The notes beneath the pieces are model-generated. The model was not told the DNA's origin. It saw only the letters and a list, made by a program, of their open reading frames with translations, and did no database searches. A DNA stretch of 64,000 nucleotides, from contig NZ_QMKQ01000010.1 in assembly GCF_003287975.1 (NCBI RefSeq), forward strand, positions 62,001-126,000. The letters run 5' to 3'. Within the stretch, counting starts at the first letter, position 1. The number at the start of each line of letters is the position of its first letter. Shown in pieces: positions 4,601 to 21,780 of the stretch. Both the position numbers and the translations under genes were made by a program. The stretch is from Arthrobacter sp. AQ5-05. Lineage in GTDB: Bacteria; Actinomycetota; Actinomycetes; Actinomycetales; Micrococcaceae.

Positions 4601-4938
4601 CCGAGGTCATCAACTCGTTCAAGTCGGGTCAGGCCCCGGTGTTCCTGATCTCGTTGAAGGCCGGCGGCTTCGGGCTGAACCTCACCGAGGCCGACTACTG
4701 CTTCCTGCTGGATCCCTGGTGGAACCCGGCTGCGGAATCGCAGGCCGTCGACCGGGCGCACCGCATCGGGCAGACCCGCAATGTGATGGTCTACCGGATG
4801 GTCGCCAAGGACACCATCGAGGAGAAGGTGGTGGCGCTGCAGGATTCCAAGCGCCAGCTGATCTCCTCGGTCATGGACGAGGGCGCGGGCTTCGGCAAGG
4901 TGCTGAACGCGGACGACATCCGCGAACTGCTGCGCTAG
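1606..4938 (+). CDS. SWIM zinc-finger SNF2-family DEAD/DEAH helicase
   Basis: 1110 residues. The N-terminus has a SWIM-type zinc finger (CPCGAAPACRHVA, about residues 79-91), followed by a long linker and a SNF2 ATPase core. Core motifs are motif I ADDMGLGKTVQT near 660, motif II DEAQ near 775, motif III ITGTPMENN, and the C-terminal helicase motifs LKAGGFGLNL and DRAHRIGQT near 1050. Bacterial RapA/HepA-like proteins of this kind remodel nucleoprotein or RNA polymerase complexes; the specific role here is unknown. The ATG directly abuts a GGGAGG run, so a slightly later start or leaderless initiation is possible. Its stop overlaps the convergent tetR gene by 4 bp. Confidence 0.92.
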   Translation: MTESAFPMVDAREILRVVGGVSFTRGKVLATDAALSGFAWDPVDQAMSATVSEDSEPAHEVRIALAAKKGERVIDDAACPCGAAPACRHVAAVLIYSNSMHLRAKDVVYRNTAVAVPAWQQALQELLAPAPATPTSLGGANSKHPVLQMGLQFELQDTTLSAHQQWAPGSGVGQLKVASRRWRLGVRPVVRSGSDRWARSNLRWNTISFKTFGLNLDIEQYRWFCQFVPLYRAKGELYFGEDNDWLYLDEYASALLWELLPTAKALGVALVGMRTNTRILLSSPAHVALGARAGEDGLALAPSLSMGGHRFILDAHSPAGSIGNHGVYAATEDQNEIFLGQVPGGLSHTELSMLHHPETLNVPEAETGEFFSRVYPRLARKLRFTSPDDSVALPAVLPPKLVARIRYGTGETVDVDWVFDYQGMVVDAADRDTAVESALESEVLQILNQYPAFESTVLGPKHLAGLEVIDFVRRVLPALAGIKDLVLNETGTRPVFHELTEAPELVITTVESDRRDWFDLGLLISIGGRQIPYADILRALAQGQTKLLMPDRTYFSLEDPLFAKLRALVAEASGLRDMKDKEADISLTQYQYALWEELDALATHIEGPDQWVSALNSLVDLKTTAVTDLPETLNATLRPYQVEGFGWLATLWRNGLGGVLADDMGLGKTVQTLALMLHAHQVWANPEAFEGITAQAKVRAPFLVVAPTSVVSNWKDEAARFAPSLRVVAVTDTESRAAASLAALAKEYDVIVTSYTLLRLDDDAYADINWAGLILDEAQFVKNKATKAHHVARDMPARFKLAITGTPMENNLMELWSIFAIVSPGLFPSAVRFAENYQRPIERQGLPEPLVRLRRRIRPFMLRRTKDAVVTDLPPKQEQVLHVELGEAHRKVYDTHLHRERQKVLRLVDDMDKNRFTIFQSLTLLRMLALDASLVDPDYGDVPSAKLDVLFEQLEDVLAEGHRALIFSQFTSFLKKAADRLDAAGVPYAYLDGSTRKRAEVINSFKSGQAPVFLISLKAGGFGLNLTEADYCFLLDPWWNPAAESQAVDRAHRIGQTRNVMVYRMVAKDTIEEKVVALQDSKRQLISSVMDEGAGFGKVLNADDIRELLR

Positions 4939-5752: not shown

Positions 5753-6784
5753 ATGAACTGGATCATGCCCGCCGAGACCTCGGCCCAGAAACGCGTGTGG
5801 ATGGCCTTTCCGCACGAGGGCTACACGCTTGGCGACACCGAGGCCGAGGCCCACGCCGCGCGCTCGACCTGGGCCAACGTCGCCCATGCGGTGGCCGAGT
5901 TCGCACCGGTTTCCATGGTCGTGGACCCGGCTGACACGCAGATCGCCGCGCGCTACCTCGACGAGCGGATCGAGATCCGCACTGCCGAGCTCAACGACGC
6001 CTGGATGCGCGACATCGGCCCCACCTTCGTCACCAATGACGCCGGCGAACTCGCAGCCGTCGACTGGGTCTTCAACGGCTGGGGTGCCCAGGACTGGGCG
6101 GCCTGGGACAAAGACGCGTTGATCGGTGCCGCGGTCGCCGAATGGGCCGGGGTGCCACGCATCGCCTCGAATCTTGTCAACGAGGGCGGAGCCATCCACG
6201 TGGACGGCGAAGGCACGGTGCTGGCCACCGAGTCGGTGCAGCTGGACCCGGGGCGCAACCCCGGGATCACCAAGGAGCAGGTCGAAGCGGAGTTCGCCCG
6301 CACCTTGGGTGCCACCAAGGTGCACTGGCTTCCCCGCGGGCTGGCCCGCGACACCGAGGAGTTCGGCACCCGCGGACACGTGGACATCGTCGCCACCATC
6401 CCCTCCCCCGGCACCGTGCTGGTGCACAGCCAGCAGCACCCCGGGCACCCGGACCACGCCATTTCCCGGGAGCTGATTGCCACCTTCCGCGGCGCCACCG
6501 ACGCGAGGGGCCGCGAATTCAACGTCATCGAGGTCCCCGCCCCGACCGTGCTGCGCGACGCGGATGGCTTCGTGGACTACAGCTACATCAACCACCTGGT
6601 GGTCAATGGCGGCGTGGTGGCCTGCACCTTCGACGACCCGAACGACGAAGCCGCCCTTGCCGTGCTGGCCGCGGCCTACCCGGGGCGCAAGGTCGTGGGC
6701 GTGGATGCCCGCGAGCTCTACGCCCGCGGCGGCGGCATCCACTGCATCACCCAGCAGGAACCCGCAGCCGGGGGCAGGCCATGA
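5753..6784 (+). CDS. aguA: Agmatine deiminase (peptidylarginine deiminase-like)
   Basis: 343 residues. This family hydrolyses agmatine to N-carbamoylputrescine and ammonia. Signatures are WMRDIGPTF, the NEGGAIHVDG loop, TRGHVDIVA (catalytic His) and the C-terminal GGGIHCITQQEP, with the nucleophilic Cys near residue 331. The ATG at 5753 is chosen because AGGAG lies 6 bp upstream; a TTG further upstream sits before that ribosome site. The stop overlaps the APC permease start (ATGA), so they are coupled. No N-carbamoylputrescine amidase (aguB) is present nearby. Some members of this family act on related guanidines, so agmatine itself is inferred. Confidence 0.88.
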   Translation: MNWIMPAETSAQKRVWMAFPHEGYTLGDTEAEAHAARSTWANVAHAVAEFAPVSMVVDPADTQIAARYLDERIEIRTAELNDAWMRDIGPTFVTNDAGELAAVDWVFNGWGAQDWAAWDKDALIGAAVAEWAGVPRIASNLVNEGGAIHVDGEGTVLATESVQLDPGRNPGITKEQVEAEFARTLGATKVHWLPRGLARDTEEFGTRGHVDIVATIPSPGTVLVHSQQHPGHPDHAISRELIATFRGATDARGREFNVIEVPAPTVLRDADGFVDYSYINHLVVNGGVVACTFDDPNDEAALAVLAAAYPGRKVVGVDARELYARGGGIHCITQQEPAAGGRP

Positions 6785-8328
6785 GCCTGTCCACCGCCCG
6801 TCGCACCCAGGCTCCCGTCCCTTCATCCGGCACCGGGCCAATCCGGTCCAAGGGCCTGGCCTCCGGCCAGCTGGGGCTCTTCGCCGCCGTCATGATCGGG
6901 ATCTCGACCATCGCCCCGGCCTACGTCCTGACCTCCTCGCTTGGCCCGACGGTCCAGGCCATCGGAACCCAGCTGCCGGCGATCTTCATCATCGGATTCA
7001 TCCCGATGTTCCTGGTGGCGCTGGCCTACCGCGAGCTGAATGCCGATACCCCGGATTCGGGCACGACCTTCACCTGGGTGGCCAAGGCCTTCGGCCCGGT
7101 GCTGGGCTGGCTGGGCGGCTGGGGCCTGCTGGCCGCCAACATCATCGTGCTCTCCAACCTCGCCGGGGTCGCCGTCGACTTCTTCTACCTGTTCCTGGCC
7201 CAGGCCACCGGCAACCCGGCCCTGGCGGAGCTGGCCGACAACAGGCTCATCAACGTCGCCACCTGCCTGGTTTTCGTGGCGGCCGCGGTGTTCATCGCCT
7301 GCCGCGGGCTGAGAACCACGCGCATGGTGCAATACGTGCTGGTCGGGTTCCAGCTGGCGGTGCTGGCCTGGTTCACGATCAGCGCCATCTCCAAGGCCGC
7401 GGACCGGCCCGGGAACCTGGCCTTTGACGCCTCGTGGTTCAACCCCGTGCACATCGATTCATTCTCCGCCTTTGCCGTGGGCCTGAGCCTGTCGATCTTC
7501 GCGTTCTGGGGCTGGGATGTCTGCCTGACCATGAACGAGGAGACCAAGAACGGCGAGAAGACCTCCGGCATGGCCGCGGCGCTGACCGCCATCGGCGTGC
7601 TGGCGATCTACCTGGCGGGCTCCGTCGCCACGCTCATGTTTGCCGGCGTCGGGGACACCGGGTTGGGCCTGCGCAACCCGGAGAACGCGGAGAACATCTT
7701 CACCGCCATCGCCGCGCCGGTCATGGGCCCGTTCGCGATCCTGCTCTCGCTGGCGGTGCTCTCCTCCTGTGCGGCATCGCTGCAGTCCACCATGATCTCC
7801 CCGGCCCGCTCGCTGCTGGCAATTTCCCACCACGGGGCGTTGCCGAAGCAGTTCACCAGGATCAACAGGTTCCAGTCCCCGGCCTTTGCCACCATGGTTG
7901 CCGGAGGCGTCTCGGCCGGCTTCTACGCGCTGATGCGTGTGCTGAGCAACAACGTCCTAAACGACACCATCCTGGCCCTGGGCATGATGATCTGCTTCTA
8001 CTACGGGCTCACCGCCCTGGCCTGCGTCTGGTACTTCCGCCGCACGGCACTGGACTCGCTGCGCAACTTCGCCCTGCGCCTGCTGGCCCCGCTGTTGGGT
8101 GGCATCGCACTGGTGGCCGTCTTCATCCAGACAGCCGTCGATTCCTGGGACCCGGCCTACGGGTCGGGCTCCCAGCTCTTCGGGGTCGGGCTGGTCTTCG
8201 TTTTGGGCGTGGGCATCATTGCCCTCGGCGCGCTGTTCCTGGTGGGGGCCGCGGCACGCCGTCCGGAGTTCTTCTCCGGCCGCTCCCTGCCCCGAAGCGT
8301 TCCGGCCTCCGGGCGCGAGCGCGTGTAG
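6781..8328 (+). CDS. APC-superfamily amino acid/polyamine permease
   Basis: 515 residues with about 12 hydrophobic segments, beginning near residue 28 (GQLGLFAAVMIGISTIAPAY). That region is the APC-family first helix, with a GxxxxI substrate-binding turn. It is translationally coupled to the agmatine deiminase gene through a 4-bp ATGA overlap, and both probably answer to the divergent TetR. The context suggests uptake of agmatine or exchange of agmatine with its product. The protein could equally carry another amino acid or amine. Confidence 0.85.
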   Translation: MSLSTARRTQAPVPSSGTGPIRSKGLASGQLGLFAAVMIGISTIAPAYVLTSSLGPTVQAIGTQLPAIFIIGFIPMFLVALAYRELNADTPDSGTTFTWVAKAFGPVLGWLGGWGLLAANIIVLSNLAGVAVDFFYLFLAQATGNPALAELADNRLINVATCLVFVAAAVFIACRGLRTTRMVQYVLVGFQLAVLAWFTISAISKAADRPGNLAFDASWFNPVHIDSFSAFAVGLSLSIFAFWGWDVCLTMNEETKNGEKTSGMAAALTAIGVLAIYLAGSVATLMFAGVGDTGLGLRNPENAENIFTAIAAPVMGPFAILLSLAVLSSCAASLQSTMISPARSLLAISHHGALPKQFTRINRFQSPAFATMVAGGVSAGFYALMRVLSNNVLNDTILALGMMICFYYGLTALACVWYFRRTALDSLRNFALRLLAPLLGGIALVAVFIQTAVDSWDPAYGSGSQLFGVGLVFVLGVGIIALGALFLVGAAARRPEFFSGRSLPRSVPASGRERV

Positions 8329-8400: not shown

Positions 8401-10572
8401 TCAGGGCGTCGAGGCCCGGGTCTTCGAATCCAGCGGGACGCGCAGGGAACCATATCGTTCCATCCGGTGCCAGCGCAGTCGCACGCCGGCCAGCGCGGTG
8501 ACCACCGACTGGATCACCACCAGGTACATCAGCTGCCGGTACACGAGCTGCTGCAGCGGCAGGGTCCACAGGGCGCGCAGCGGCTCGCGGTCGAGCCGGA
8601 ACGCGTAGGCGGCCATGATGAACTGGATCAGCAGGAAGATTCCCCAGAGAACGGCGATCCGCACGGGATCCAGGAACACCAGGCCGTAGATGGCGAACAC
8701 GTCCACGACGGGCGCGAAGAGCGGAAGCAGCACCTGGAAGACCAGCAGGTAGCCAAGCCCCCGGCGTCCCAGCTTCCCGGCCGCGCCCGACTGCGCGACG
8801 GCCCCGCGGTGCTTCCACATGGCCTGCAGCGTGCCATAGCACCAGCGGTAGCGCTGCTTCCACAGGGCCCCGAGGGTTGCCGGTGCCTCTGTCCAGGCCA
8901 GGGCGTCGTCCTCGTACACGACCCGCCAGCCGTCGCGGCACAGGGCCATGGTCAGGTCGGTGTCCTCGGCCAGGGTGTCGTTGCTGACCCCGCCCACCCG
9001 GGCCAGGGCCTCGCGGCGGAATGCGCCGATCGCACCGGGGACCGTGGGCATGCATTCGGCGACGTCGAACAGGCGGCGGTCCAGGTTGAACCCGACGACG
9101 TACTCGATGTGCTGCCACGCACCGAGGATGCCGCCGCGGTTGGCGATCTTGGTGTTGCCCGAAATGGCGCCGACCCGTGGATCGGAAAAGCGCTGGATCA
9201 GAACGTGGACGGTGTCGGGCTCGAAGACGGTGTCCCCGTCGACCATCACCACCAGGTCGTGGCGGGCCGCGGCGATCCCGGCGTTCAGGGCCGAGGGCTT
9301 CCCGCCGTTCTCCTTGCGGATGGTTTCGACATTCGGCAATCCGAGCGCCTCGACGATGTCGGCGGTGCCGTCCGTGGAACCGTCGTCGACGACGATGACC
9401 TGCACCGGATGGGTCGAGGCGGCGATGGACCGCACGGCAGCCTCGATGCCGGCCGATTCGTTGTACGCCGGGACGATCACGCTGACGGGCTCGAGGACCT
9501 CGGTGCGCATCGGCGCCGAGAACCAGGCCCGGTCCCGCTCGGCCGCGCGGGTTCGCCGCACTGCCCTGCTGTGCCGGAAGGCGACAACCATCACCAGCGC
9601 CGCCCTCCCCAGCGTCAGGACCCCGGCCGCGACCAGGCCCCACGAGATGGCCGTGGCAACGGCATCGGTGAACCGGATGCCGAAGACGAACGCGGTCCCG
9701 ATCAAGGAGTCGGCGAAGGACGCCTGCCGGGTGCTGTCCACGCCGATCGAGTCGCCGACCGTGGTGAAGCGGTGGCCGGACGCGGCCTGCTTCCCAAGCG
9801 CCGCGGACAGCGCCTCGACGGTCTGGGACCGGTTCCCCCCTCCGTCGTGCATCAGGACCACCTGGCCACGGGCCCCGGGCTGCAGCAATCGTCCGATGAC
9901 CACCTCGGCGCCGGGGGCGTTCTCGTCTGCGCTGTTGTGCGTGCTGAGCACGGTGAGAAAGCCCTCGTCCGCTGCCGTGTCCATGGCCGACCACTGGCCG
10001 TCGGTGGTCGACGCATTGTCTGTGCTGTGCGGCGGGCGCAGCAGCGACGGCGATAGGCCGGCGATCCCCGCTACGACCTTCTGGGCGCCCCTGATCTCGA
10101 GCTGGCGCCGCCATGCGGGGGCCGCGGAGAGATCGGCATGCGTGAGCGTCTGGATGCCGATCTCGTGACCCTCGGCGACCATGCGCCGCAGCAACTCGGG
10201 GTGCTTGATCGCCAAGGTGCCGGTCACGAAGAAGGTGGCGTGGACCCCGCGCTCCCGCAGGACATCGAGGATCTTCGGCGTCCAGGCCGGGTCGGGCCCG
10301 TCGTCGAAGGTCAGGGCCACGGTGTGGCCGGAGGGGCTGGCCGTGAGGACCTCCTCCCCGCGCGCATCAATGATCGGTCCGCCAGAAGAGACCGCCGCGG
10401 GAACGTTCCCGGTGGCGTGGCTCGCGGGCGCGGGGCGATCGTTGATTCCCGCAAGGTGGTTCATATATCCCTGGACGGCCAGCGACAGCCCTAGCGTCAG
10501 CACGACGACGAGCATGAGGAACCAGTGAGCCCCGATGCCGCCGGTGCGGGCGGCCCGGCGTCCGGTGCTCAC
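8401..10572 (-). CDS. Polysaccharide deacetylase-GT2 glycosyltransferase fusion, membrane-bound
   Basis: 723 residues. An N-terminal membrane helix (about 15-35) is followed by a NodB-type deacetylase domain (about 85-280; TFDDGPDP and VVLMHDGGGNRSQT), a second helix pair, and a family-2 glycosyltransferase (about 360-600; VDDGSTDGT, DGDT, EDTDLT, QRYRW). Several C-terminal helices resemble those of hyaluronan/cellulose-synthase-type enzymes. The expected roles are synthesis and deacetylation of an extracellular polysaccharide. The deacetylase metal-binding motif reads IQTLTHADL where family members have NHTxTHxDL, so the first metal His is Gln, and the Arg motif reads RPPH. Deacetylation may therefore be weak or lost. 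The GTG start overlaps the stop of the upstream gene (GTGA). Confidence 0.88.
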   Translation of the reverse strand: MSTGRRAARTGGIGAHWFLMLVVVLTLGLSLAVQGYMNHLAGINDRPAPASHATGNVPAAVSSGGPIIDARGEEVLTASPSGHTVALTFDDGPDPAWTPKILDVLRERGVHATFFVTGTLAIKHPELLRRMVAEGHEIGIQTLTHADLSAAPAWRRQLEIRGAQKVVAGIAGLSPSLLRPPHSTDNASTTDGQWSAMDTAADEGFLTVLSTHNSADENAPGAEVVIGRLLQPGARGQVVLMHDGGGNRSQTVEALSAALGKQAASGHRFTTVGDSIGVDSTRQASFADSLIGTAFVFGIRFTDAVATAISWGLVAAGVLTLGRAALVMVVAFRHSRAVRRTRAAERDRAWFSAPMRTEVLEPVSVIVPAYNESAGIEAAVRSIAASTHPVQVIVVDDGSTDGTADIVEALGLPNVETIRKENGGKPSALNAGIAAARHDLVVMVDGDTVFEPDTVHVLIQRFSDPRVGAISGNTKIANRGGILGAWQHIEYVVGFNLDRRLFDVAECMPTVPGAIGAFRREALARVGGVSNDTLAEDTDLTMALCRDGWRVVYEDDALAWTEAPATLGALWKQRYRWCYGTLQAMWKHRGAVAQSGAAGKLGRRGLGYLLVFQVLLPLFAPVVDVFAIYGLVFLDPVRIAVLWGIFLLIQFIMAAYAFRLDREPLRALWTLPLQQLVYRQLMYLVVIQSVVTALAGVRLRWHRMERYGSLRVPLDSKTRASTP

Positions 10573-11264: not shown

Positions 11265-12320
11265 TTAGGGAACCAGCATGACCTTGATGGAAGTTCTCTC
11301 GTCCATGGCCCGGTAGGCCTCGGGCGCCTGCTCCAAGCCCATGACCGTGTCGAAGACCAGGCCGGGGTTGATCCCGCCGGCCAGCACGTCCTCGAGCAGT
11401 TCGGGCAGGTAGGCCCGGGTGCTTGCGGCACCGCCTGCGACCGAGATGTTCTTGGAGAAGAGCACCGAGATCGGCAGCCCGTCCTGGCCGTGCGGAACGC
11501 CCACGAAGCCCAGCGAGCCGCCGGGCCGGGTGCAGCGCAGCGCCTGGTCCATGGCCTCGGCGGTGCCCACGCATTCGAGCACCGAATCCGCCAGCACTCC
11601 CCCGAGCAGTTCGCGCACCTTCACGGCGGCCTCGGCACCGCGTTCGGACACCACATCGGTGGCCCCGAATTCGCGGGCCAGCGCCGCGCGGTCGGCGTGC
11701 CGGGACATCGCGATGATGCGTGTAGCACCCAGGCGCTTGGCGGCAAGCACCCCGCACAGACCCACGGCGCCGTCGCCGACGACCACGACGCTGCGCCCGG
11801 GCGCCACCCTGGCACCGAGGGCGGCATGGTGCCCGGTGCCCATCACATCGGAAAGTGCCAACAGCGACTTGGACAGTGCCTCGTCCGGTTCGCTGACGCC
11901 CGGGACCGGAACCAGGGTGCCGTCGGCGTTGGGGACCCGCACCGTTTCACCCTGCCCACCGTCCACCGGCAACCCGTTCTCGTCGTTCCCGCCCCAGGAC
12001 GCCCGGTGCTCGCAGGCGACCTGGACGCCGTTGCGGCACGGCGGGCAGGTGCCGCAGCTATTGGCCCAGGGGGCCACCACGAAGTCGCCGACCTTCAAGG
12101 TGGCGACCTTGCACCCAAGCGCCGTCACGGTTCCGATGAATTCGTGGCCGATGCGCCGGGGCTCCGGGATCGGGTTGACGCCGCGGTAGGGCCAGAGGTC
12201 CGAGCCGCATACGCAGGCTGCGCCGACCTTGACGATTGCGTCGGTGTCGGCGAGCAGAACGGGATCGGGGCAGTCCTCGACGCGGATGTCCCGCGGTCCG
12301 TGGATCAGGGTGGCGCGCAT
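11265..12320 (-). CDS. Zinc-dependent alcohol dehydrogenase family protein
   Basis: 351 residues, MDR superfamily. The catalytic zinc ligands are visible as C38 (CVCGSD) and H59-E60 (GHE). The structural zinc site is CGTCPPC plus a fourth Cys (C89, C92, C95, C103). The Rossmann region reads VVVVGDGAVGLCG. It most resembles dehydrogenases of the threonine/sorbitol/glutathione-independent type that use NAD(P). It stands alone between the glycosyltransferase pair and a small divergent gene, so the substrate is not indicated by context. Confidence 0.88.
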   Translation of the reverse strand: MRATLIHGPRDIRVEDCPDPVLLADTDAIVKVGAACVCGSDLWPYRGVNPIPEPRRIGHEFIGTVTALGCKVATLKVGDFVVAPWANSCGTCPPCRNGVQVACEHRASWGGNDENGLPVDGGQGETVRVPNADGTLVPVPGVSEPDEALSKSLLALSDVMGTGHHAALGARVAPGRSVVVVGDGAVGLCGVLAAKRLGATRIIAMSRHADRAALAREFGATDVVSERGAEAAVKVRELLGGVLADSVLECVGTAEAMDQALRCTRPGGSLGFVGVPHGQDGLPISVLFSKNISVAGGAASTRAYLPELLEDVLAGGINPGLVFDTVMGLEQAPEAYRAMDERTSIKVMLVP

Positions 12321-12960: not shown

Positions 12961-13968
12961 CTAGATGTCCAGGATCATGCGCAACCCCTTGCAACGGGAC
13001 ACGCAGATCATCATGGTGTCCCCCGCCTGGCGTTCCTCATCGGACAGCAGCGAGTCCCGGTGATCGATATCCCCCGAGACCACCGGGGTCTCGCAGGTCC
13101 CGCAGATCCCCTCCCGACAGGAGTTCAGCACCGGCACCCCGGCCTCCGCGAGCGCATCCAGGATGCTGGTGCCCACCGGCACCTGCACCTCGACGCCGTC
13201 GGTGGTTTCCACGGTGAACTCGTGGTCCCCTGCCGCCGGGGCGGTGGCGGTCGGGTCGGCCACGAACCGCTCGAAGTGGAACCGGGCCTTGTCTTCCCAA
13301 CCGGCGGCCAGCGACGCAATGAAGTCCAGCAGCGGGCCCGGGCCACAGGCGTAGGTGTGGAACGCTGCGTCCGCGTCCCCCAGCAGCTCCTTCAGCGGAT
13401 AGAGACCGGCGGTGTCATCGGCATGCACCTGCACCTTGTCCCCGTAGCGCGCCAGCTCGGCGGTGAACGCCATCGACTCCAGACTCCGGCCAAGGTAGAG
13501 CATTCGCCACGGGATCCCGGATTCCTCCGCCGCGGCGAGCATCGGCAGGATCGGGGTGATCCCGATGCCCCCGGCAATGAACAGGTATTCCGGGGCCGGC
13601 TGCAGCCCGAAGTTGTTGCGCGGTTCTCGGACCTTGACCCGGGCACCGGGCCGCAGGTCGTCATGCACGTAGGCGGAGCCGCCGCGGCCGGCCGGCTCGC
13701 GCAGCACCCCCAGCCGCCAGCGCCGGGCCCCGGCCTCGGAACACAGCGAGTACTGGCGCAGCAACCCGTTGGGCAGCAGCACGTCGATGTGCGATCCCGG
13801 GGTCCAGCCCGGCAGTGGCCGGGCTGCCGGGTGCGCCAGGTGCAAGGAGAGCACGCCCGAGGATTCGGTGCGGATCTCGGCGACCTCCATCTCGAAGAAG
13901 CCGTCCGTCCCGATGCCCAGGAGGGCCCCGGAATCAGGATCCAGTCCGCTGTCTATTGTCATGGTCAC
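12961..13968 (-). CDS. Phthalate-dioxygenase-type reductase (FMN/NAD/2Fe-2S)
   Basis: 335 residues in the order of the PDR/VanB family. An FMN/FAD barrel (RQYSL) comes first, then the NAD(P) domain (GGIGITP), and a C-terminal plant-type ferredoxin domain with CREGICGTC (C284, C289, C292) and a fourth Cys in MMICVSRC. Such proteins pass electrons from NAD(P)H to oxygenases. No Rieske oxygenase is nearby, but a cytochrome P450 lies at the other end of the locus, so that is the likely partner. The GTG start at 13968 overlaps the upstream stop (GTGA) and has GGAGGT 5 bp before it; ATG 13962 is the alternative. Confidence 0.88.
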   Translation of the reverse strand: MTMTIDSGLDPDSGALLGIGTDGFFEMEVAEIRTESSGVLSLHLAHPAARPLPGWTPGSHIDVLLPNGLLRQYSLCSEAGARRWRLGVLREPAGRGGSAYVHDDLRPGARVKVREPRNNFGLQPAPEYLFIAGGIGITPILPMLAAAEESGIPWRMLYLGRSLESMAFTAELARYGDKVQVHADDTAGLYPLKELLGDADAAFHTYACGPGPLLDFIASLAAGWEDKARFHFERFVADPTATAPAAGDHEFTVETTDGVEVQVPVGTSILDALAEAGVPVLNSCREGICGTCETPVVSGDIDHRDSLLSDEERQAGDTMMICVSRCKGLRMILDI

Positions 13969-15113
13969 GATGCACCTCCGGTGCTGTGATGTGTTTCCGC
14001 GGACGATGCCGCGCTGTGCGAAGCCGGGATGCCCGGCAGGGAAGGTTCCAGCGAGTCGACGGCGGCCAGCACCGCGTCGGAGGCCTCGCGCACGGAGATG
14101 GTCACCCGCACTCCCGAGCCGGGGAAGGCACGAACGGAGACGCCGTGGGCCACGCAGGCGGCCTCCAACTCCAACGAGCGCGGTCCGGCGGGAATCCATA
14201 TGAAGTTCCCGCCGCTGGGCGGGACCGGCAGCCGGCGGGCGAGCAACCCCTCGTGCAGGTAGGCACGCTCGGCCACGACCCCGGACACCGTGGCGGCCAG
14301 GTGGGCGTTGTCGGACCAGGCCGCGACCGCGCCGGCCTCGGCCAGCGAACTGAGCCCGAAAGGCGGGGCCACGGCACGGATATCCGCCGCGATGCCCATG
14401 CCGGTGAGCAGGTAGCCGGCCCGGGCCCCGGCCAGTGAGTAGGCCTTGGAGAAGGTCCGCAGGATGACCAGGTTCGGGTGGGACTCCAGCAGGTGCCGCG
14501 AGTCGGTTTCGGCGTCGGCGAACTCCCGGTAGGCCTCGTCGAGCACCACCAGCACGTGCCGCGGCATGCGGTCCAGGAATGCCGTGAGCTCCGCAATCTC
14601 CAGCACGGTGCCGGTGGGGTTGTTCGGGTTGCACAGCAGCACCATGCAGGTCTTTCCGGTAACCGCCTTGCCCATGGCGTCCAGGTCGTGCCGGTGGGCC
14701 GGGTCCAGGGGCACGGGAAGCGATTCGGCGCCGGCCAGGGCAATAAGCATCGGGTATGCCTCGTAGCTGCGCCATGCGTGCACCACGGTGGATCCGGCCG
14801 GAGCGTAGGCATCGAACAGCTGTCCCAGCAGGGCCAGTGATCCGCCGCCCACCACGACCTGTCCCGGGTCCAGGTCCAGCCCGGAAGCGATTGCCGCGAC
14901 CAGCTCGCCACCGACGATGCCCGGGTACCGATTGGCTCCGGCCGCGGCGTCGGCCATCGCGGCAACGGCCGCCGGGGACGGTGCGGTGCACGATTCGTTC
15001 GAGGACCCCACCCAGCGCACGGTGTCCAGGCCCGCCGCCCGCGAGTACCTCGGCAGCGTGGCCACGATCGCGCGCGGCACCGGGCCTGCGCACATGCCGG
15101 TATGCATGCTCAC
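13965..15113 (-). CDS. HisC-like PLP aminotransferase (class I/II)
   Basis: 382 residues, fold type I. Landmarks are NPNNPTG (carboxylate and cofactor binding), LDEAY (Asp for the pyridine N) and TFSKAYSLAGARAGY with the Schiff-base Lys near 223. It resembles histidinol-phosphate aminotransferase/CobD-type proteins. There is no histidine biosynthesis context; it sits between an amino-acid importer and a reductase in an operon headed by a histidase-like lyase. It may transaminate the imported amino acid or a downstream intermediate. The substrate is unknown. Confidence 0.82.
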   Translation of the reverse strand: MSMHTGMCAGPVPRAIVATLPRYSRAAGLDTVRWVGSSNESCTAPSPAAVAAMADAAAGANRYPGIVGGELVAAIASGLDLDPGQVVVGGGSLALLGQLFDAYAPAGSTVVHAWRSYEAYPMLIALAGAESLPVPLDPAHRHDLDAMGKAVTGKTCMVLLCNPNNPTGTVLEIAELTAFLDRMPRHVLVVLDEAYREFADAETDSRHLLESHPNLVILRTFSKAYSLAGARAGYLLTGMGIAADIRAVAPPFGLSSLAEAGAVAAWSDNAHLAATVSGVVAERAYLHEGLLARRLPVPPSGGNFIWIPAGPRSLELEAACVAHGVSVRAFPGSGVRVTISVREASDAVLAAVDSLEPSLPGIPASHSAASSAETHHSTGGAS

Positions 15114-15161
15114 TGTTTTGCTCCGTTCAGGGGGGTTGTCTTGGTGGTGTGCCCGAGCGGG

Positions 15162-15929
15162 CTAGGCCAGGACCTTGGAGAGGAACGCCTGGGTGCGTGT
15201 CTCACGCGGATTCCCCAAGACCTGGGTCGGGCTGCCTGATTCGACCAATTGCCCGTCGGCCATGAAGTGCACGACGTCGCCGACCTCTTTTGCAAAGCCC
15301 ATTTCGTGGGTGACCACGATCATGGTCATGCCGGAGGCGGCCAGCGAACCCATCACGTCCAACACCTCCCCGACCAGCTCCGGGTCCAGCGCGCTGGTCG
15401 GCTCGTCGAAGAGCATCAGCCGCGGCTTCAGGGCCAGCGCGCGGGCGATCGCCACGCGCTGCTGCTGGCCTCCGGAGAGTTGGGCGGGGTAGTGCTTGTA
15501 CTTGTCGGCCAGCCCGACGCGGTCCAGCAGTTCCATGCCCTCGCGCAGCGCCTGCGCCTTGTTGCGCTTCTGCACCACGACCGGTCCCTCGATGACGTTC
15601 TCCAGGGCCGTGCGGTGCGGGAACAGGTTGAACTGCTGGAAGACCATGCCCACTGCGGCGCGTTGCTTTGCCGTCTGGTTTTCCTTCAGTTCGTGCAGCT
15701 TGTTCCCGGAACGGCGGTAGCCGATGCGTTCCCCGGCCACCCACAATTCCCCGTCGTTGATCTTCTCGAGGTGGTTGATGCAGCGCAGGAACGTCGATTT
15801 GCCCGAGCCCGAGGGGCCCAGCAGGCAGGCGACCTGCCCGGCCTGCACCTCCAGGGAGATGCCCTTGAGGATTTCCAAGTGCCCGAAGGACTTGTGGACG
15901 TTGCGTGCCCGCAGCATGGGTTCGCTCAT
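15162..15929 (-). CDS. Polar amino acid ABC transporter, ATP-binding subunit
   Basis: 255 residues. Walker A is GPSGSGKST, the Q-loop lies in VFQQFNLF, the signature is LSGGQQQR, Walker B/D-loop is [13 protein letters not shown], and the switch His is in VVTHEMGFA. This is the GlnQ/HisP group that energises polar or basic amino-acid uptake. The start at 15929 overlaps the permease stop (ATGA). Together with the next two genes it forms a complete importer; a single permease gene suggests a homodimeric channel. Confidence 0.95.
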
Positions 15930-16903
15930 TTGGTGGGCTCCAATTCCGGTTCGTTGGCCTGGGCCGCGGCGGGTTCCGCGGCGGACGGAACCACTGTCTC
16001 GGCGGTTCCCGGGGTGGGCGGCTTCTTGCCCTTCATCGGGGTGAAACCGCGTTCGAAGTGCCGCTCGATGAAGTGCTGTCCGACCGAGAACACCGCGGTG
16101 ACAGCCAGGTACCAGATCGCCGCGACGATCAGCAGCGGAATGGTCTGGAAGTTGCGCGAGTAGATGATCGAGACGCTGGTGAGCAACTCCGAGTAGCCGA
16201 TCACGATGACCAGCGAGGTGTACTTGAGCATGCCGATGGTCTCGTTGCCGGTCGGCGGGATGATCACCCGCATGGCCTGCGGCAGCACGACCCGGCGCAT
16301 GGTCTGCAGGCGGGACATGCCGATGGCCTTGGCGGCCTCGGTCTGTCCCGGCGAAATCGCCCGGATCCCGGAGCGCACGATCTCGCCCATGTAGGCGCCC
16401 TCGTTCAGGCTCAGGCCCAGCAGGGCCGCGGTGAACGGGGAAATGACCGAGTTCGTGTCGATGCTCAGCAACTCGGGCCCGAACGGGACGCCGAGGCCGA
16501 TGGTGGGGACCAGCGCCGCCAGGAAGAACCAGAACAGCAGCTGCACCATCAGCGGGGTGCCGCGGAAGAACCACGAGTATGCCCAGGCGGCGGTGGACAG
16601 GATCGGGTTGCTCGAGAGCCGGCACACCGCCACCACGATGCCCAGCAGGACTCCGATGAGCATCGAGATCCCGGTGAGCATCAGCGTCTTGCCCAGGCCC
16701 GAGATCACCGGTGCGGCGAAGAGGTACTCCCCGACCACGTCCCAGTGGAAACGCTCGTTGGTGAACATCGCGTAGATGGTCATCGCCAGGATGCCCAGCA
16801 CGGCCACGGCAGCCACCCAGCGGCCCACGAAGCGGGCAGGAACGACCCGCAGATCGGCTTCCTCGTTGCGTCGACCTTCGACGACGGCTGCCACCTGGGT
16901 CAT
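15926..16903 (-). CDS. Polar amino acid ABC transporter, permease subunit
   Basis: 325 residues with five to six transmembrane segments and the HisM/GlnP-type EAA loop ([20 protein letters not shown]). The N-terminus is a cytoplasmic tail and the last 50 residues are a Pro/Ala/Glu-rich tail with no fold. The start overlaps the stop of the substrate-binding protein gene, and the stop overlaps the ATPase start, so all three are coupled. Confidence 0.94.
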
Positions 16904-17799
16904 TCCTTGACCCCGTTGACCTCAAAGGTTTCCATGGAGTGCTCGGCCATGTCGTAGTCGGCCAGGATCTTGTCGTAGGTCCCGTCGGCCTTGATGGCCT
17001 CCAGACCCTTCTGGATCGCTCCCATCAACTGTTCCTGGTCCTTGGGAAAGACGATGCCGAAGGCCAGGTCCTGGTAGCGCTCGCCCATGGACAGGGCGCC
17101 CTTGGATTCTGCGGCGATGACCGAACCCGAGGTGGAGTCGACCAAAAACGCCTCGACGCGTTCTGACTGCAGGGCCAGCACGGCCTGGTTCTGCCCGGCG
17201 AAGATGGTGACTTCGATCTTTTCCTTGCCTGCTTCCTCGCACTTCTTGGAGGCCGCGGCTGCGTCGGCGTCCTCGGTGGTGCCCTTCACGATGCCCACGT
17301 GGGTGCCGCAGAGGTCGTCGAGGGTCTTGAGCTTCTCGGCGTTGGCGGCAGTGGTCATCACGCCGCCGCCGGCGGAGAAGTAGTCCAAGAAGTTCACGGC
17401 CTTCTGGCGTTCGACGGTGTCCGACATCGCCGACATCGCCATGTCGTAGCGGGCGGAGGAAAGTCCGGGGATGATCGCGTCGAAGGCGATGTTGTCGAAG
17501 TCCATGGTGACCCCGAGCTGCTTTTCCAGGGCGTCGGCGATCTCACGGTCGATGCCGATGATGGTGGTGCCGTCGGTGTCGTAGGACTCGAACGGCGGGT
17601 ATTCCACGTTGCTTGCCACGTTGATGGTCCCGGATTCCTGGACTTTCTGGGGCAGTTCCTTGAACAGCGGGGCCGAGGTGTCGGTGGCGGCGGGCTTCTC
17701 GGCCTCGGCGGTTCCGCCGCAGGCGCTGACGCCAAGCAGGGCGGCAATGGCCAGTGCGCCGAGGGCGGTGGAACGGATGGTGCGATTCGTGTTCTTCAT
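16900..17799 (-). CDS. Amino acid ABC transporter, substrate-binding lipoprotein
   Basis: 299 residues from an ATG with AGGGAG upstream. It has a lipoprotein signal peptide with lipobox LGVSACGG (Cys27), then an SBP_bac_3 domain: [24 protein letters not shown] and [11 protein letters not shown]. This family binds polar and basic amino acids, and the ABC subunits downstream confirm import. The operon suggests that the imported amino acid is the substrate of the histidase-like lyase upstream. Confidence 0.93.
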
Positions 17800-17873
17800 G
17801 ATGCGAACTCCCTTGTGCTTGCTGCTCGTGGAACTTCTTTTCAGGGGTCCCGTCGTCTTTGGCGGGATGTTTT

Positions 17874-17912
17874 TGGGTGCACCCATCCAACCCACCGGCA
17901 AGGTGCCGGTGG
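17874..17912 (-). promoter_or_regulatory. Intercistronic palindromes between lyase and binding-protein genes
   Basis: A perfect 12-bp palindrome TGGGTGCACCCA (17874-17885) is followed by a 9-bp stem-loop CCACCGGCA-AGG-TGCCGGTGG (17892-17912). They lie in the 152-bp gap between the lyase stop and the binding-protein start. No T-run follows on the coding strand, so this looks more like an RNA-stabilising or partial-attenuation element that could raise binding-protein expression than a full terminator. Confidence 0.5.
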
Positions 17913-17951
17913 ACCGGGGTGTGGTTGTCGTACGGTGGCGCGCTTCCGGCG

Positions 17952-19628
17952 TCAGCCGGCAAGCGCCTGGTTGACCGTGTCCACCACGGTTCCGTCATGG
18001 ACCAGTTCCAGGGCCTTGCGGATCCTGGGGTACATGACGACGTCGGCGCGGATGTGGTCGATGGGCCGTCCGTCGTCTGAGGCGGTTCCGCGGACCAGGG
18101 CCAAGGCCGCGGCGGCGGCCGGGCTCAGGCGGGCATCCGCGGTGGCCTCGAGTCCCAGGCGCAGCTCGAGGGCCTGGGCGGCCATGAGCAGCTCGATGCC
18201 GACCACCGATTCGATGTTGGCCACGATTTGCCGGGTGTGGCGTCCGGCGTTGTTCGCCATCGACACGTGGTCTTCCTGGTTGGCGCAGGTCGGGATGGAA
18301 TCCACCGAGTCCGGGTGGGCGAGGGTCTTGCAATCGGAGACCAGTGCCGCGGCCAGGTACTGCGGGAGCATGTAGCCGCAGTCCATGCCGGTCTGCTCGG
18401 AGTCGATGAGCATGTCCGGAAGCCCGCGGTTCAGCGTACCGTCATCCAGGCGGAAGAGCCGGCGCTCGGTGATGGAGCCTATCTCGGTGACCGCGATCGA
18501 GATGAAGTCGGCGGCGAAGGCCACGTACTCGGCGTGGAAGTTGCCTCCCGACACGGCCTTGAGTTTGCGGGTGTCGGGCAGCGCGGGGAAGATCAGCGGG
18601 TTGTCGGTGGCCGCGTTGATCTCGTTTTCCAGGATGCCGGCGGCGAAGGCCAGCGTGTCCTTGACCGGGCCGAAGACCTGCGGGACGCAGCGCAGCGAGT
18701 AGGCGTCCTGCGGGGGCTGGCGCACCGGGTCGGTGGCGGCGTTTCCGTCGATCAAGGTGGAGCCGGCCAGCAGCTCGCGGATGCGGGCGGCGACCTCAAT
18801 CTGGCCGCGCTGGCCGCGGGCCTGGTGCAGTTCGTCGATGAATGCGTCCCCGAAGCCCATCAGCGCCTCGATGCTCATGGCCGCGGTGATCTGTGCGGTC
18901 TCCAGCAGGTTCTGCGCGTCATAGAGGGCCAGTGCGGCCTGGGCGGCGGAGAAGGACGTGCCGTTGAGCAGTGCCAGCCCGTCCTTGGCCCCCAGCGGCA
19001 GGCGTTCGATCCCGGCCGCTGCCATGGCCTTGATCCCGGAGACGATCTTGCCCTCGAGCATCGCCTCGCCCGAGTCCAGTTCGATGTCCTCCCCGGTGTG
19101 CGGGCGGGACATCACGATGGCCACGTGGGCCAGCGGAATCAGGTCCCCGGAGGCACCAAGCGAACCATACTCGGGGATGGCCGGGCAGACCCCGGCGTTG
19201 AGCATGTCCACGAGCGTGGTGACGATTTCCGGCCGGATGCCGGAGAAGCCCTGGGTGAGCGAAACGATACGGATGAACATGGTCGCGCGGACCACCTCTT
19301 CGTCGACGTAGCAGCCCACGCCGGCGGCGTTGGAAAGCACAAGACGGCGCGACAGCTCGGCGGCGTCGGCCGGTTCGGCGAAGGCGCGGCGTCCCGCCAG
19401 GGAACCGAAACCGGTATTGATGGAGTAGATCGGCGGGGTGTCCTTGCCCGGGCCCATCGAATCCACGACGCCCTGCAGCCAGTTTCGGGACGGTTCCATG
19501 ACCTCGAAGACCGCTTCGTCGATGGCCACCGGGCGGCGGTGGCGGGCGACCTGGATCAGGTCCTCAAGGGTCGTGCGCTGGATACCGATCCGCACCGGCG
19601 CGGTCTCAGGCAATACTGCTGTAGTCAT
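17952..19628 (-). CDS. Histidine-ammonia-lyase-like MIO enzyme, substrate uncertain
   Basis: 558 residues, aromatic amino-acid lyase family. The MIO-forming triad is ASG at 159-161 (GSLGASGDLIPLAH). Other conserved residues are Y68 (YSINTGFG), N222 (LLNGTS), QDAYSLRC, GGNFHAE and E452 (NQEDHVSMA). The last is a histidase residue that contacts imidazole. The selectivity pair that is Ser-His in histidase (LVLSHAAG) reads S99-N100 (LVLSNAAG), and RCQPQ reads RCVPQ. No hutU/I/G neighbours exist. The ATG at 19628 has AGGGAG upstream and lies inside the 3' end of iclR (23-bp overlap). It may be a histidase or may act on a modified histidine or other aromatic amino acid. Confidence 0.85.
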   Translation of the reverse strand: MTTAVLPETAPVRIGIQRTTLEDLIQVARHRRPVAIDEAVFEVMEPSRNWLQGVVDSMGPGKDTPPIYSINTGFGSLAGRRAFAEPADAAELSRRLVLSNAAGVGCYVDEEVVRATMFIRIVSLTQGFSGIRPEIVTTLVDMLNAGVCPAIPEYGSLGASGDLIPLAHVAIVMSRPHTGEDIELDSGEAMLEGKIVSGIKAMAAAGIERLPLGAKDGLALLNGTSFSAAQAALALYDAQNLLETAQITAAMSIEALMGFGDAFIDELHQARGQRGQIEVAARIRELLAGSTLIDGNAATDPVRQPPQDAYSLRCVPQVFGPVKDTLAFAAGILENEINAATDNPLIFPALPDTRKLKAVSGGNFHAEYVAFAADFISIAVTEIGSITERRLFRLDDGTLNRGLPDMLIDSEQTGMDCGYMLPQYLAAALVSDCKTLAHPDSVDSIPTCANQEDHVSMANNAGRHTRQIVANIESVVGIELLMAAQALELRLGLEATADARLSPAAAAALALVRGTASDDGRPIDHIRADVVMYPRIRKALELVHDGTVVDTVNQALAG

Positions 19629-20391
19629 CAAGGGTCTCCCTGGTTGATTTGTTCGGGGTGCTGGCTTGCAGCAAGTCGGTGAGGTCTGCGGCCGCGTCGC
19701 GCATGACCTTCAGCGTCGAAGCGATCCACAGCTTGGATCCGCAGCGGCCCTCGGGGCCGGCCACGTTCAACGAGCAGACCACTTCGCCGCGGCTGAACAC
19801 CGGAATGGCGACGGACACCGATCCCTCGTCGAGCTCGCCCCTGGAAAGGACAACCCCGGAGGAACGGATCTGCGGGATGCTGGACAGGATTTGTTCCGGG
19901 CCCAGGGTGTTGGGGGTGAAGCGCGTCATCGGTCCGGCGAGGACCTGGCGCACAACTTCCGGGGGCGCCCAGGCGAGTATCATGCGTTGCCCGGCCCCGG
20001 CGTGAAGTGGCAGCAATTCGTTGATCGCGAACGTGTACTTCAGCGATTTGTCCGGTTCGGCACGGCGCAGGCACATCGCATGGTCACCGATGCGCACGAT
20101 CATCACCGCGGTTTCACCTACCTTCTCAACGATCGAACGCAATACCGCGTTGCCGACCTCGGCCAGGTGGGACTGGGCCAGGTGTTGGCCGGACATGTGC
20201 AGCAGCGCGCGGCCCGGGCGGTAGCGCCCGTCCTCCTCGGACACGAACTCCTGCTCGCGCAGGACCTTGAAGTACCGATATGCGGAGCTGGAGGGAATGC
20301 CCAGCTTGAGGGACACGGCATCGACCGTGGTCTCGCCGCTGGCGGTGATCTCCGCCAGAATTTTCAGCCCGCGCTCAAACGAGGATGACAT
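19606..20391 (-). CDS. IclR-family transcriptional regulator
   Basis: 261 residues from an ATG with AAGGGAG upstream. The N-terminal winged helix (TVDAVSLKLGIPSSSAYRYF) and the C-terminal IclR ligand domain are both recognisable. It is the first gene of the lyase/transporter/aminotransferase/reductase operon and is divergent from the P450, so it is placed to control both directions from the 180-bp spacer. The ligand is unknown; a pathway intermediate is likely. Confidence 0.9.
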   Translation of the reverse strand: MSSSFERGLKILAEITASGETTVDAVSLKLGIPSSSAYRYFKVLREQEFVSEEDGRYRPGRALLHMSGQHLAQSHLAEVGNAVLRSIVEKVGETAVMIVRIGDHAMCLRRAEPDKSLKYTFAINELLPLHAGAGQRMILAWAPPEVVRQVLAGPMTRFTPNTLGPEQILSSIPQIRSSGVVLSRGELDEGSVSVAIPVFSRGEVVCSLNVAGPEGRCGSKLWIASTLKVMRDAAADLTDLLQASTPNKSTRETLDDYSSIA

Positions 20392-20483
20392 GTCCGCTCC
20401 CTTCCCCCAATCGAATGTGATGGTCCGCACATTCCGGCTCCACGGGATAGATATTCCATGGTTCATCCGGGGAGGACAATCTT

Positions 20484-20504
20484 GATTCTCGCATAGTGGG
20501 AATC
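20484..20504. promoter_or_regulatory. Candidate IclR operator in the divergent spacer
   Basis: GATTCTC-N7-GGGAATC is an imperfect inverted repeat with 6 of 7 arm positions matching. It lies midway between the iclR and P450 starts. A CATAGT hexamer inside it could be a -10 for the P450. IclR proteins bind short palindromes of this kind, but the site is assigned only by position. Confidence 0.4.
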
Positions 20505-20571
20505 GAATTAACTCGCGTTCCCGCGCCTCGCTAGGTTGGGTGTCATTCACCCCTACCCGCAGGAGGCACCC

Positions 20572-21780
20572 ATGGAATCCGTCCTTGCCGCATCGACGGT
20601 CCCGGTCTTCACCCAAGACCCCTACGCGCCGGAGCACCTGGCCGACCCGTACCCGCTGTTCGCGAAGATGCGCGCCGCGGGCCCGGTGGTCATGATGCAG
20701 GAGCACGGCCTGCACGCGGTCACGCGTTTCGCCGAATGCAAGGAGGTCCTGGACGACTACCGCACCTACATCTCCGGGGCCGGGGCCGGGCCGAAGAACC
20801 TGCACCACGAACCCAGCTGGCGCGCCCAGGGCATCATGGAGTCCGACCCGCCGATCCACACCGACATGCGCCATGCCATGGCCGGGGTCATCTCCCCGCG
20901 CGGGGTCCGCTCGCTACGCGCCGGCTTCGAGGCCTACGCCACCGAACTGGTCGACTCCCTGCTGGAGGCCCGCAACGTCGACCTGGTCAAGGACATGGCC
21001 GAGGTCTTCCCGCTGCGTGCCTTCGGCGACGCCGTCGGCATCCCGCGCGAGGGCCGGGCCGAGAACCTGCCGGCACTGGGTGCGGCGAACTTCTCCACGT
21101 TCGGCCCCGACACCCCCCTGGCCCGCGAACACTTCGCGGCCGGTTCCGGGATGAACGACTGGGCCATGGCCAATACGGCCCGCAAGAACCTGTCCCCCGG
21201 ATCGCTCGGCGCGCAGATCTGGGAGTATGCCGACCGCGGGGAGATCAGCACGGACCAGGCCGCGTTGCTGGTCCGTGCGATGCTTTCGGCAGGACTGGAC
21301 ACCACCATCTTCTCCCTGGGCGCCACGCTGCTGGCACTGGCCAGCAACCCGGGCGAATACGCCAAGGTCCACCAGAGCCCGAAGCTGGTGAAGTTCGCCA
21401 TCGACGAGGCCTTCCGCTACGAGTCCCCGTTCCAGTCCTTCTACCGCACCACCTCGCGGGCCACCGAGCTGGGCGGGGTGGAACTGCCGGCCGACACCAA
21501 GGTCGCGGTCTTCGTCGGCTCGGCCAACCGCGACGCCGAACGTTGGGGCCCGAGGGCCGACGAGTACGACATCACCAGGTCCGCCGGCGGGCACCTGGCT
21601 TTCGGTATGGGCATCCACCAATGCGTCGGCCAGCCGCTCTCCCGGCTGGAAATGGAGGTGCTGCTCACCGAGTTCACCAAGCGCGTGAAGTCGGTGGAGC
21701 TCACCGCCGAGCCCGAGCAGTTCCTGCACACCACGCTACGCGGCTGGTCCTCGATCCCGGTGTCCATCACCCCGGCCTGA
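20572..21780 (+). CDS. Cytochrome P450, CYP199-like
   Basis: 402 residues with AGGAGG 5 bp before the ATG. The heme ligand is C351 in FGMGIHQCVGQ. The I-helix oxygen-activation motif is AGLDTT at 240-245, and the K-helix ExxR is in DEAFRYESP. Recalled similarity to CYP199A (4-methoxybenzoate demethylase of Rhodopseudomonas) is extensive, for example ESPFQSFYRTTSR, GSANRD and the TLRG near the end. CYP199 enzymes oxidise para-substituted benzoic and cinnamic acids. The only electron-transfer gene nearby is the PDR-type reductase. An acrylate made by the lyase (cinnamate- or urocanate-like) would be a sensible substrate, but this is inference. Confidence 0.9.
   Translation: MESVLAASTVPVFTQDPYAPEHLADPYPLFAKMRAAGPVVMMQEHGLHAVTRFAECKEVLDDYRTYISGAGAGPKNLHHEPSWRAQGIMESDPPIHTDMRHAMAGVISPRGVRSLRAGFEAYATELVDSLLEARNVDLVKDMAEVFPLRAFGDAVGIPREGRAENLPALGAANFSTFGPDTPLAREHFAAGSGMNDWAMANTARKNLSPGSLGAQIWEYADRGEISTDQAALLVRAMLSAGLDTTIFSLGATLLALASNPGEYAKVHQSPKLVKFAIDEAFRYESPFQSFYRTTSRATELGGVELPADTKVAVFVGSANRDAERWGPRADEYDITRSAGGHLAFGMGIHQCVGQPLSRLEMEVLLTEFTKRVKSVELTAEPEQFLHTTLRGWSSIPVSITPA

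Follow-up and report, generated by a model that had tools for sequence, protein, structure and literature searches.

A cytochrome P450 locus of Arthrobacter sp. AQ5-05 and its proposed role in N-methylhistidine utilisation

Two types of locus around one lyase clade

We analysed a 64,000-nucleotide stretch of the genome (4.65 Mb) of the soil bacterium Arthrobacter sp. AQ5-05, hereafter the window (G000:C10:62001-126000), in which a CYP199-like cytochrome P450 gene stands next to genes for a histidase-like ammonia-lyase of the 4-methylideneimidazole-5-one (MIO) type, an amino-acid importer and a phthalate dioxygenase reductase (PDR)-type reductase. Turnover of muscle protein, anserine and balenine yields N-methylhistidines in abundance as end products, and we consider it probable that this locus is an N-methylhistidine utilisation operon, whose P450 and reductase demethylate N-methylurocanate for the ordinary histidine utilisation (Hut) pathway.

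By using tblastn with identity thresholds, we compared 69 loci, that is 63 (L054-L116) of the 80 kept in our genome collection plus six of 20 others fetched (L034-L037, L040 and L043). L117-L133, about 40-44% identical, were excluded from this table, as were the 14 other fetched loci, 13 of which are duplicate contigs of included loci and one of which (L053) is a canonical locus. First, we found a CYP199-like P450 in 42 of the 69 loci. The reductase accompanies it in 37 of them (it is missing or under the threshold in L063, L066, L086, L095 and L101) and occurs in none of the 27 other loci. The initial annotation of the window, made from the sequence alone, had named, next to an ordinary histidase kinetics of the lyase, a lack of conservation of P450 and reductase with the lyase in relatives as speaking against it; they are conserved. 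Second, a dedicated Hut set, defined as a urocanase or as an imidazolonepropionase plus a deiminase, is present in 21 loci; all three enzymes were found in 20 of them, and L116 ends at a contig end. Third, none of the 69 loci holds both a P450 and a dedicated Hut set. Six loci have neither: in L082, L090, L100, L108 and L112 the lyase lies near a contig end or on a contig shorter than 6 kb, and in L079 a urocanase is 27 kb distant. Therefore, the P450 and its reductase appear to take the place of a second Hut set.

In the two sister loci examined, the dedicated enzymes exceed the cut-offs of Hut models (hutU and hutI of L050, hutF of L091). The dedicated urocanases form a distinct clade, with a mean identity of 77% within it versus 45% to others, and 49 positions are switched between the two groups (17 dedicated and 21 other sequences, gene calls longer than 450 aa only). 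As for the other genes, an IclR homologue is found in 40 of the 42 P450 loci, and the aminotransferase homologue in 17 of these 42 and in 14 of the 21 Hut-set loci. LldD-like and GlcD-like dehydrogenases occur in 8 and 9 of the P450 loci, respectively, and in 7 Hut-set loci each. A tripartite ATP-independent periplasmic (TRAP) transporter is confined to Hut-set loci (7/21), and HutC is found in 8 of these and in L079 but in no P450 locus (0/42).

In L088, L091 and similar alphaproteobacterial relatives, the lyase is accompanied by HutC, the TRAP transporter and homologues of L- and D-2-hydroxyacid dehydrogenases; the presence of these dehydrogenases suggests that such bacteria use imidazole-lactates. 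One genome (G062) has a broken urocanase at a distance of 13 kb from the lyase; we considered whether it is a remnant of the second type of locus and rejected this, its nearest relative being a canonical urocanase (87%).

Organisation of the locus

Open reading frame and profile searches of the window found eight genes, and the gene identities given in the initial annotation (iclR, MIO lyase, importer trio, HisC-like aminotransferase, PDR-type reductase) hold, as does the divergent P450 gene across a 180-bp spacer. The features are as follows.

20572..21780, plus strand: CYP199-like cytochrome P450, proposed N-methylurocanate N-demethylase (CYP199 structure matches and residue comparison)
20486..20502, no strand: candidate IclR operator, 17-bp palindrome TTCTCGCATAGTGGGAA (related sites in the P450/iclR spacers of relatives)
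19606..20391, minus strand: IclR-family regulator (profile searches; homologues in the P450 loci counted above)
17952..19628, minus strand: MIO ammonia-lyase from a clade of histidase-like proteins, proposed to act on N-methylhistidine (Ala-Ser-Gly motif, residue 100 = Asn)
19329..19331, minus strand: Asn100 codon of the lyase, recognition position of histidine ammonia-lyase (HAL; His83 in Pseudomonas putida)
17892..17912, minus strand: hairpin without a T run between the lyase and solute-binding protein genes, possible processing or attenuation site
16900..17799, minus strand: family 3 solute-binding lipoprotein of the amino-acid importer (profile searches)
15926..16903, minus strand: importer permease, HEQRo type (profile searches)
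15162..15929, minus strand: importer ATPase (profile searches)
13965..15113, minus strand: HisC-like aminotransferase, proposed (methyl)imidazolepyruvate/histidine transaminase (scores under the HisC model cut-offs)
12961..13968, minus strand: PDR-type reductase (flavin/NAD region and C-terminal 2Fe-2S), proposed redox partner of the P450

The minus-strand genes had been read as one coupled transcription unit with 4-bp overlaps. Such overlaps do join the solute-binding protein gene to the permease gene, the permease gene to the ATPase gene and the aminotransferase gene to the reductase gene. However, iclR and the lyase gene overlap by 23 bp, and gaps of 152 bp (with the strong hairpin inside) and 48 bp separate the lyase gene from the solute-binding protein gene and the ATPase gene from the aminotransferase gene, respectively. 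Because these two gaps interrupt the coupling, a single unit is likely but no more than that. Among relatives, our gene calls place the lyase and reductase genes next to each other in 11 loci, in nine of which the lyase stop and the reductase start share 4 bp; in the window the two genes are not adjacent. As already noticed in the initial annotation, there is no hutU in the locus: the sole urocanase match of the source genome adjoins the other PF00221 match on contig C2, outside the window.

The lyase forms a clade apart from canonical HutH

The window lyase belongs to PF00221 (E 8.4e-162), keeps the MIO triad Ala-Ser-Gly as GASGDL and retains the histidase segment NQEDHVSM. It scores 517.5 bits against the HutH equivalog model TIGR01225, under the cut-off of 539.15, whereas the canonical HutH of the same genome reaches 607.8 bits. 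In the named genome collection, where 80 loci were kept of 117 confirmed, lyase identity drops from 62% to 44% with none between, and on the lyase tree the split of the clade from canonical HutH has 100% support in the Shimodaira-Hasegawa-like approximate likelihood ratio test (SH-aLRT). The clade is also extra to canonical HutH: 57 of the 58 clade-carrying genomes have at least two PF00221 matches, one of which scores at least 577 bits in 56 of these 57 while no clade member exceeds about 548 bits, and a urocanase was found in 56 of the 58. That the window lyase is the only histidase of the cell is ruled out by the canonical HutH and urocanase elsewhere in the genome.

At position 83, where 18 of 18 canonical lyases have His, 51 of the 64 clade members carry Asn and the remaining 13 carry Asp, so that the clade lacks the His83-containing SH motif characteristic of HutH. 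This count was made without the lyases of L079, L104, L107, L108, L112 and L113 (missing, short or split gene calls) and, on the canonical side, without the divergent PF00221 proteins L142_02 and L150_06. In the pocket, the equivalents of Tyr53, Asn195, Gln277, Tyr280, Arg283, Phe329 and Glu414 (P. putida HAL numbering) are kept. In PMC11432326, histidine recognition is attributed to the SH motif, and the H82L variant of GkHAL is described as having no activity on histidine. We found no measured activity for any clade member; if our reading is true, it assigns a function to a lyase that the broad model names "histidine ammonia-lyase".

This lyase is rare. Among 295 genomes of the family, 29 have lyases that pass E 1e-100, 20 of them at 70-100% identity (the clade) and nine at 44-45%, and in a phylum-wide draw at E 1e-160 the lyase was found in one of 396 genomes, the source genome itself. 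The nearest named relatives carrying the locus are Paeniglutamicibacter, clade members occur in Actinomycetota and Pseudomonadota, and one, at 65% identity, is encoded on a Streptomyces plasmid.

On the lyase tree labelled for the P450 (a quick tree without bootstrap, also made without L149_04), four changes of the label are needed, two of them forced by starred branches: the P450 loci of Geodermatophilaceae and Leucobacter fall among Hut-set lyases, and one Streptomyces splits off from the main P450 group. On the P450 tree, in contrast, Leucobacter joins Brevibacterium, and Geodermatophilaceae together with the apart-branching Streptomyces join Nocardioidaceae. Since both trees group the taxa differently, they suggest that P450 module and lyase were re-paired in evolution. 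On balance, we incline to the view that the P450 is built into histidine-type catabolism, and that the P450 module and the second Hut set are interchangeable and have been swapped repeatedly behind the same lyase. This would be an example from nature in which unrelated enzyme modules, two in number, meet the same metabolic need.

The P450 and its reductase

CYP199 enzymes perform para-demethylation of aryl carboxylates, for instance the O-demethylation of 4-methoxybenzoates, and their known substrates, aryl carboxylic acids, carry no amino group. By the naming rule, a member shares more than 40% identity with CYP199A4, a benzoate demethylase. The best solved-structure matches of the window P450 are CYP199 chains (E 9e-99), and its identity to CYP199A4 is 42.0% over 393 columns, which places it in CYP199 although at a borderline value. 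It keeps the heme Cys and the equivalents of Asp251, Arg92, Arg243, Phe182, Phe185 and Phe298, and differs by Ser95 to Gly, Ser244 to Ala, Val181 to Asn and Val295 to Phe. Among the 42 lyase-linked P450s, the Thr252 equivalent is Thr in 39 and Ser in three, and the Val181 to Asn switch is found in all 42. The equivalents of Arg92 and Arg243, which we take to be the carboxylate-holding residues, are kept throughout, one in all 38 sequences that cover the position and the other in 42 of 42. In the family, all 15 genomes with the P450 at 64% identity or more (15/295) fall within the 20 that have the lyase at 70% or more, so that the association of both genes is more than chance.

The reductase has Fer2 at residues 257-326 of 335, and its match to phthalate dioxygenase reductase (2pia) spans 22-335, as expected for a PDR-type protein; its NAD domain is slightly below the Pfam cut-off (21.9 versus 22). 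Its two best structure matches are the C-terminal parts of P450 chains of 779 and 786 aa (6laa and 6kbh), which by chain length and matched range are P450-reductase fusions, and 2pia is the fourth-best solved relative. All three share the domain order of the window reductase, which is stand-alone, unlike the two fusions. The proposed partner of the window P450 is a PDR-type flavo-ferredoxin, whereas CYP199A4 uses a separate ferredoxin and reductase. Our reading, if true, would also give a P450/PDR pair its function.

Two further groups of P450s were noticed. In one related genus, a paralogue that is 54-58% identical to the window P450 groups inside the lyase-linked P450 clade. In seven of the eight loci fetched for it (L154-L159 and L161, from G085, G062, G163, G136, G176, G122 and G007), canonical hutH is about 5-6 kb away; no PDR reductase was found beside it in these seven, and no hut gene was seen in the eighth, L160. 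This hut link may be incidental, as threonine dehydrogenase-like and 2-amino-3-ketobutyrate ligase-like genes share the synteny. More distant CYP199-like P450s (about 48-51%) adjoin PDR-type reductases in L162, L163 and L164, near genes that read as major facilitator superfamily (MFS) transporter-like and aldehyde dehydrogenase-like; these represent a wider two-component P450/PDR group, perhaps of aromatic demethylases.

Formaldehyde dehydrogenase and urocanase in relatives

Behind the reductase of L073, L076 and L087, which belong to two strains of Pimelobacter simplex and a Nocardioides and form one clade, we found an S-(hydroxymethyl)mycothiol dehydrogenase. In L073, this mycothiol-dependent formaldehyde dehydrogenase scores 642.3 bits (cut-off 512.9) and lies 18 bp behind the reductase, and its orthologues in L076 and L087 are 92-93% identical to it. 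Its presence behind the reductase points to demethylation. Another copy above the cut-off is present in two of these three genomes. At other loci, relatives of the enzyme are only 27-32% identical, and each of them belongs to the genus of the window or is a copy. A Zn alcohol dehydrogenase (11265-12320) flanking the window locus was considered as a formaldehyde dehydrogenase and dropped, as it is under every listed cut-off.

A urocanase was found in 36 of the 38 P450-locus genomes searched, and in 20 of 20 family lyase carriers versus 240 of 295 family genomes overall, a weak enrichment. If the P450 releases formaldehyde from what the lyase makes, then, with canonical Hut kept and no dedicated hydratase set in these loci, it is most simply explained as a methylurocanate N-demethylase. 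A further urocanase of Pimelobacter simplex (L170, G306:C4:1020000-1030000) adjoins, on reading the sequence, luciferase-type monooxygenase-like, MFS transporter-like and IclR regulator-like genes.

Proposed pathway and alternatives

We infer the substrates, the order of the steps and the position of the methyl group as follows. The ATP-binding cassette (ABC) importer would take up N-methylhistidine, most likely the N-tau isomer, and the HisC-like aminotransferase would let the matching imidazole-pyruvate enter as amino acid, as LldD- and GlcD-like dehydrogenases may do for imidazole-lactates in relatives. The specialised lyase would then remove ammonia to give N-methylurocanate, whose N-methyl group the P450, fed from NAD(P)H by the PDR reductase, would hydroxylate to release formaldehyde and urocanate. 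Ordinary Hut enzymes encoded elsewhere would finish urocanate, whereas in the relatives without the P450 the dedicated hydratase, imidazolonepropionase and deiminase paralogues probably process methylated intermediates. The initial proposal, in which uptake and deamination of a modified-imidazole amino acid are followed by P450 oxidation of the resulting acrylate, is supported by the comparison with relatives.

With regard to known systems, the locus shares with the canonical Hut pathway (HutH/U/I/F) the MIO lyase family and motif, and the downstream enzymes of sister loci are HutU/I/F homologues; it differs by its separate lyase clade, with His83 replaced, added to HutH, and by the lack of a urocanase in the window. 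Bacterial degradation of N-tau-methylhistidine is the subject of a publication by Beliaeva, Atac and Seebeck (2022, doi 10.1021/acschembio.2c00437). The route reportedly leads to glutamate and N-methylformamide in a Bacillus and is likewise opened by a histidase-like lyase, and its logic is resembled by the sister loci without the P450; it reportedly has no P450, whereas here P450 and reductase would replace dedicated hydratase, propionase and deiminase. The P450 branch looks like a new variation on the breakdown of methylhistidine. Our literature search, which left most subscription journals outside its coverage, found no publication on a P450 acting on methylurocanate and gave almost nothing on the microbial fate of N-methylhistidines. 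If true, the locus provides a gene signature for microbial N-methylhistidine breakdown, and it forms a coherent catabolic module that can be tested with three purified proteins.

Several observations weigh against this pathway. The adjoining formaldehyde dehydrogenase occurs in one clade only, in 3 of 42 P450 loci. Urocanase is common in the family regardless of the locus, and two draft assemblies with a P450 locus lack it: none was found in Arthrobacter AZCC_0090 (L060), and neither a urocanase nor a second lyase in Geodermatophilus TF02-6 (L115). CYP199A4 Ser95 and Ser244 are not kept in the window P450. The lyase passes the broader histidase model NF006871 (542.5 versus a cut-off of 524), and the need for a special lyase is weakened because canonical HAL is reported to be active on N-tau-methylhistidine (PMC11432326, citing Beliaeva et al. 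2022 as its ref. 21).

Among the alternatives, the same scheme could serve N-pi-methylhistidine (from anserine) or another N-alkyl histidine. This is unlikely, although less so than the other alternatives; the lyase clade, the mutual exclusivity and the formaldehyde evidence fit any removable N-alkyl group. However, the side of the ring on which N-tau sits is probably the one to which both position 83 and the para-directed pocket of CYP199 are turned, so that the N-tau isomer is probably preferred, and it is for this isomer that a publication on bacterial degradation exists.

It is less likely still that the P450 demethylates first, at the level of the amino acid or the imidazole-lactate, and that the lyase is a second histidase for the resulting histidine. 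Co-location of the genes would be the same whatever the order of the steps, but the same lyase clade occurs with the divergent urocanase set and no P450, His83 is lost in 64 of 64 aligned members, a second PF00221 lyase is already there in nearly all carriers (57/58), and known CYP199 substrates have no amino group.

We regard as improbable that the P450 epoxidises or ring-hydroxylates methylurocanate in a pathway that bypasses Hut entirely, as could be read from Geodermatophilus TF02-6, which keeps the locus; the urocanase in nearly all P450-locus genomes searched and the formaldehyde dehydrogenase in three loci speak against it. The least probable alternative, the aromatic one of the initial annotation, in which an amino acid such as O-methyltyrosine yields a cinnamate that the P450 O-demethylates, fits the O-demethylation by CYP199 enzymes and the distant P450/PDR pairs near aldehyde dehydrogenase-like genes. 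Against it, lyases of this clade are accompanied in sister loci by urocanase, imidazolonepropionase and formimidoylglutamate deiminase, and the lyase is of the HutH family with its NQEDHVSM segment kept.

A shared palindrome in the P450/iclR spacer

In the proposed N-methylhistidine operon, we infer that IclR controls both divergent promoters through the palindrome at 20486-20502. The pattern, TTCTCACA-N2-GTGAGAA, has two free central positions and 15 scored ones, and its consensus was drawn by eye from P450/iclR spacers. In each of 33 such spacers from 27 genomes (six under two ids), the best 17-mer scores 10-14 of 15, which shuffles of the same spacer (n = 200) reach in 0-3.5%; as the consensus comes from these spacers, this enrichment is partly by construction, from which sites in other loci are exempt. 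Across 84 loci (1.51 Mb, some genomes twice), we counted 32 sites scoring at least 13, all intergenic, compared to 0-9 for 20 shuffled palindromes (median 0, at most one in 18 of the 20). Among these 32 are sites that precede the lyase gene in L074, L075, L097 and L116, four Hut-set loci that have no P450. In Brevibacterium, P450 and iclR have the same direction, unlike the divergent pair of the window.

The source genome has one exact match, at the window locus, and three matches with one mismatch. One of the latter (L167:1501-3015, G000:C17 near 38576) lies upstream of an IclR gene whose product may be a related regulator. The next gene encodes a HutG-like formimidoylglutamase and is cut by the locus end (183 bits versus a cut-off of 229). 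The other two one-mismatch matches look like chance.

Neighbouring genes in the window

Elsewhere in the window, positions 1627-4938 encode an SNF2-family helicase of 1103 aa, whose scores for ZorD and DrmD, two models associated with defence, are under the cut-offs. Positions 5753-8328 hold an agmatine-deiminase-like gene and an amino-acid permease-like gene with a 4-bp overlap, and positions 8401-10572 encode a polysaccharide deacetylase fused to a PgaC-like glycosyltransferase (723 aa).

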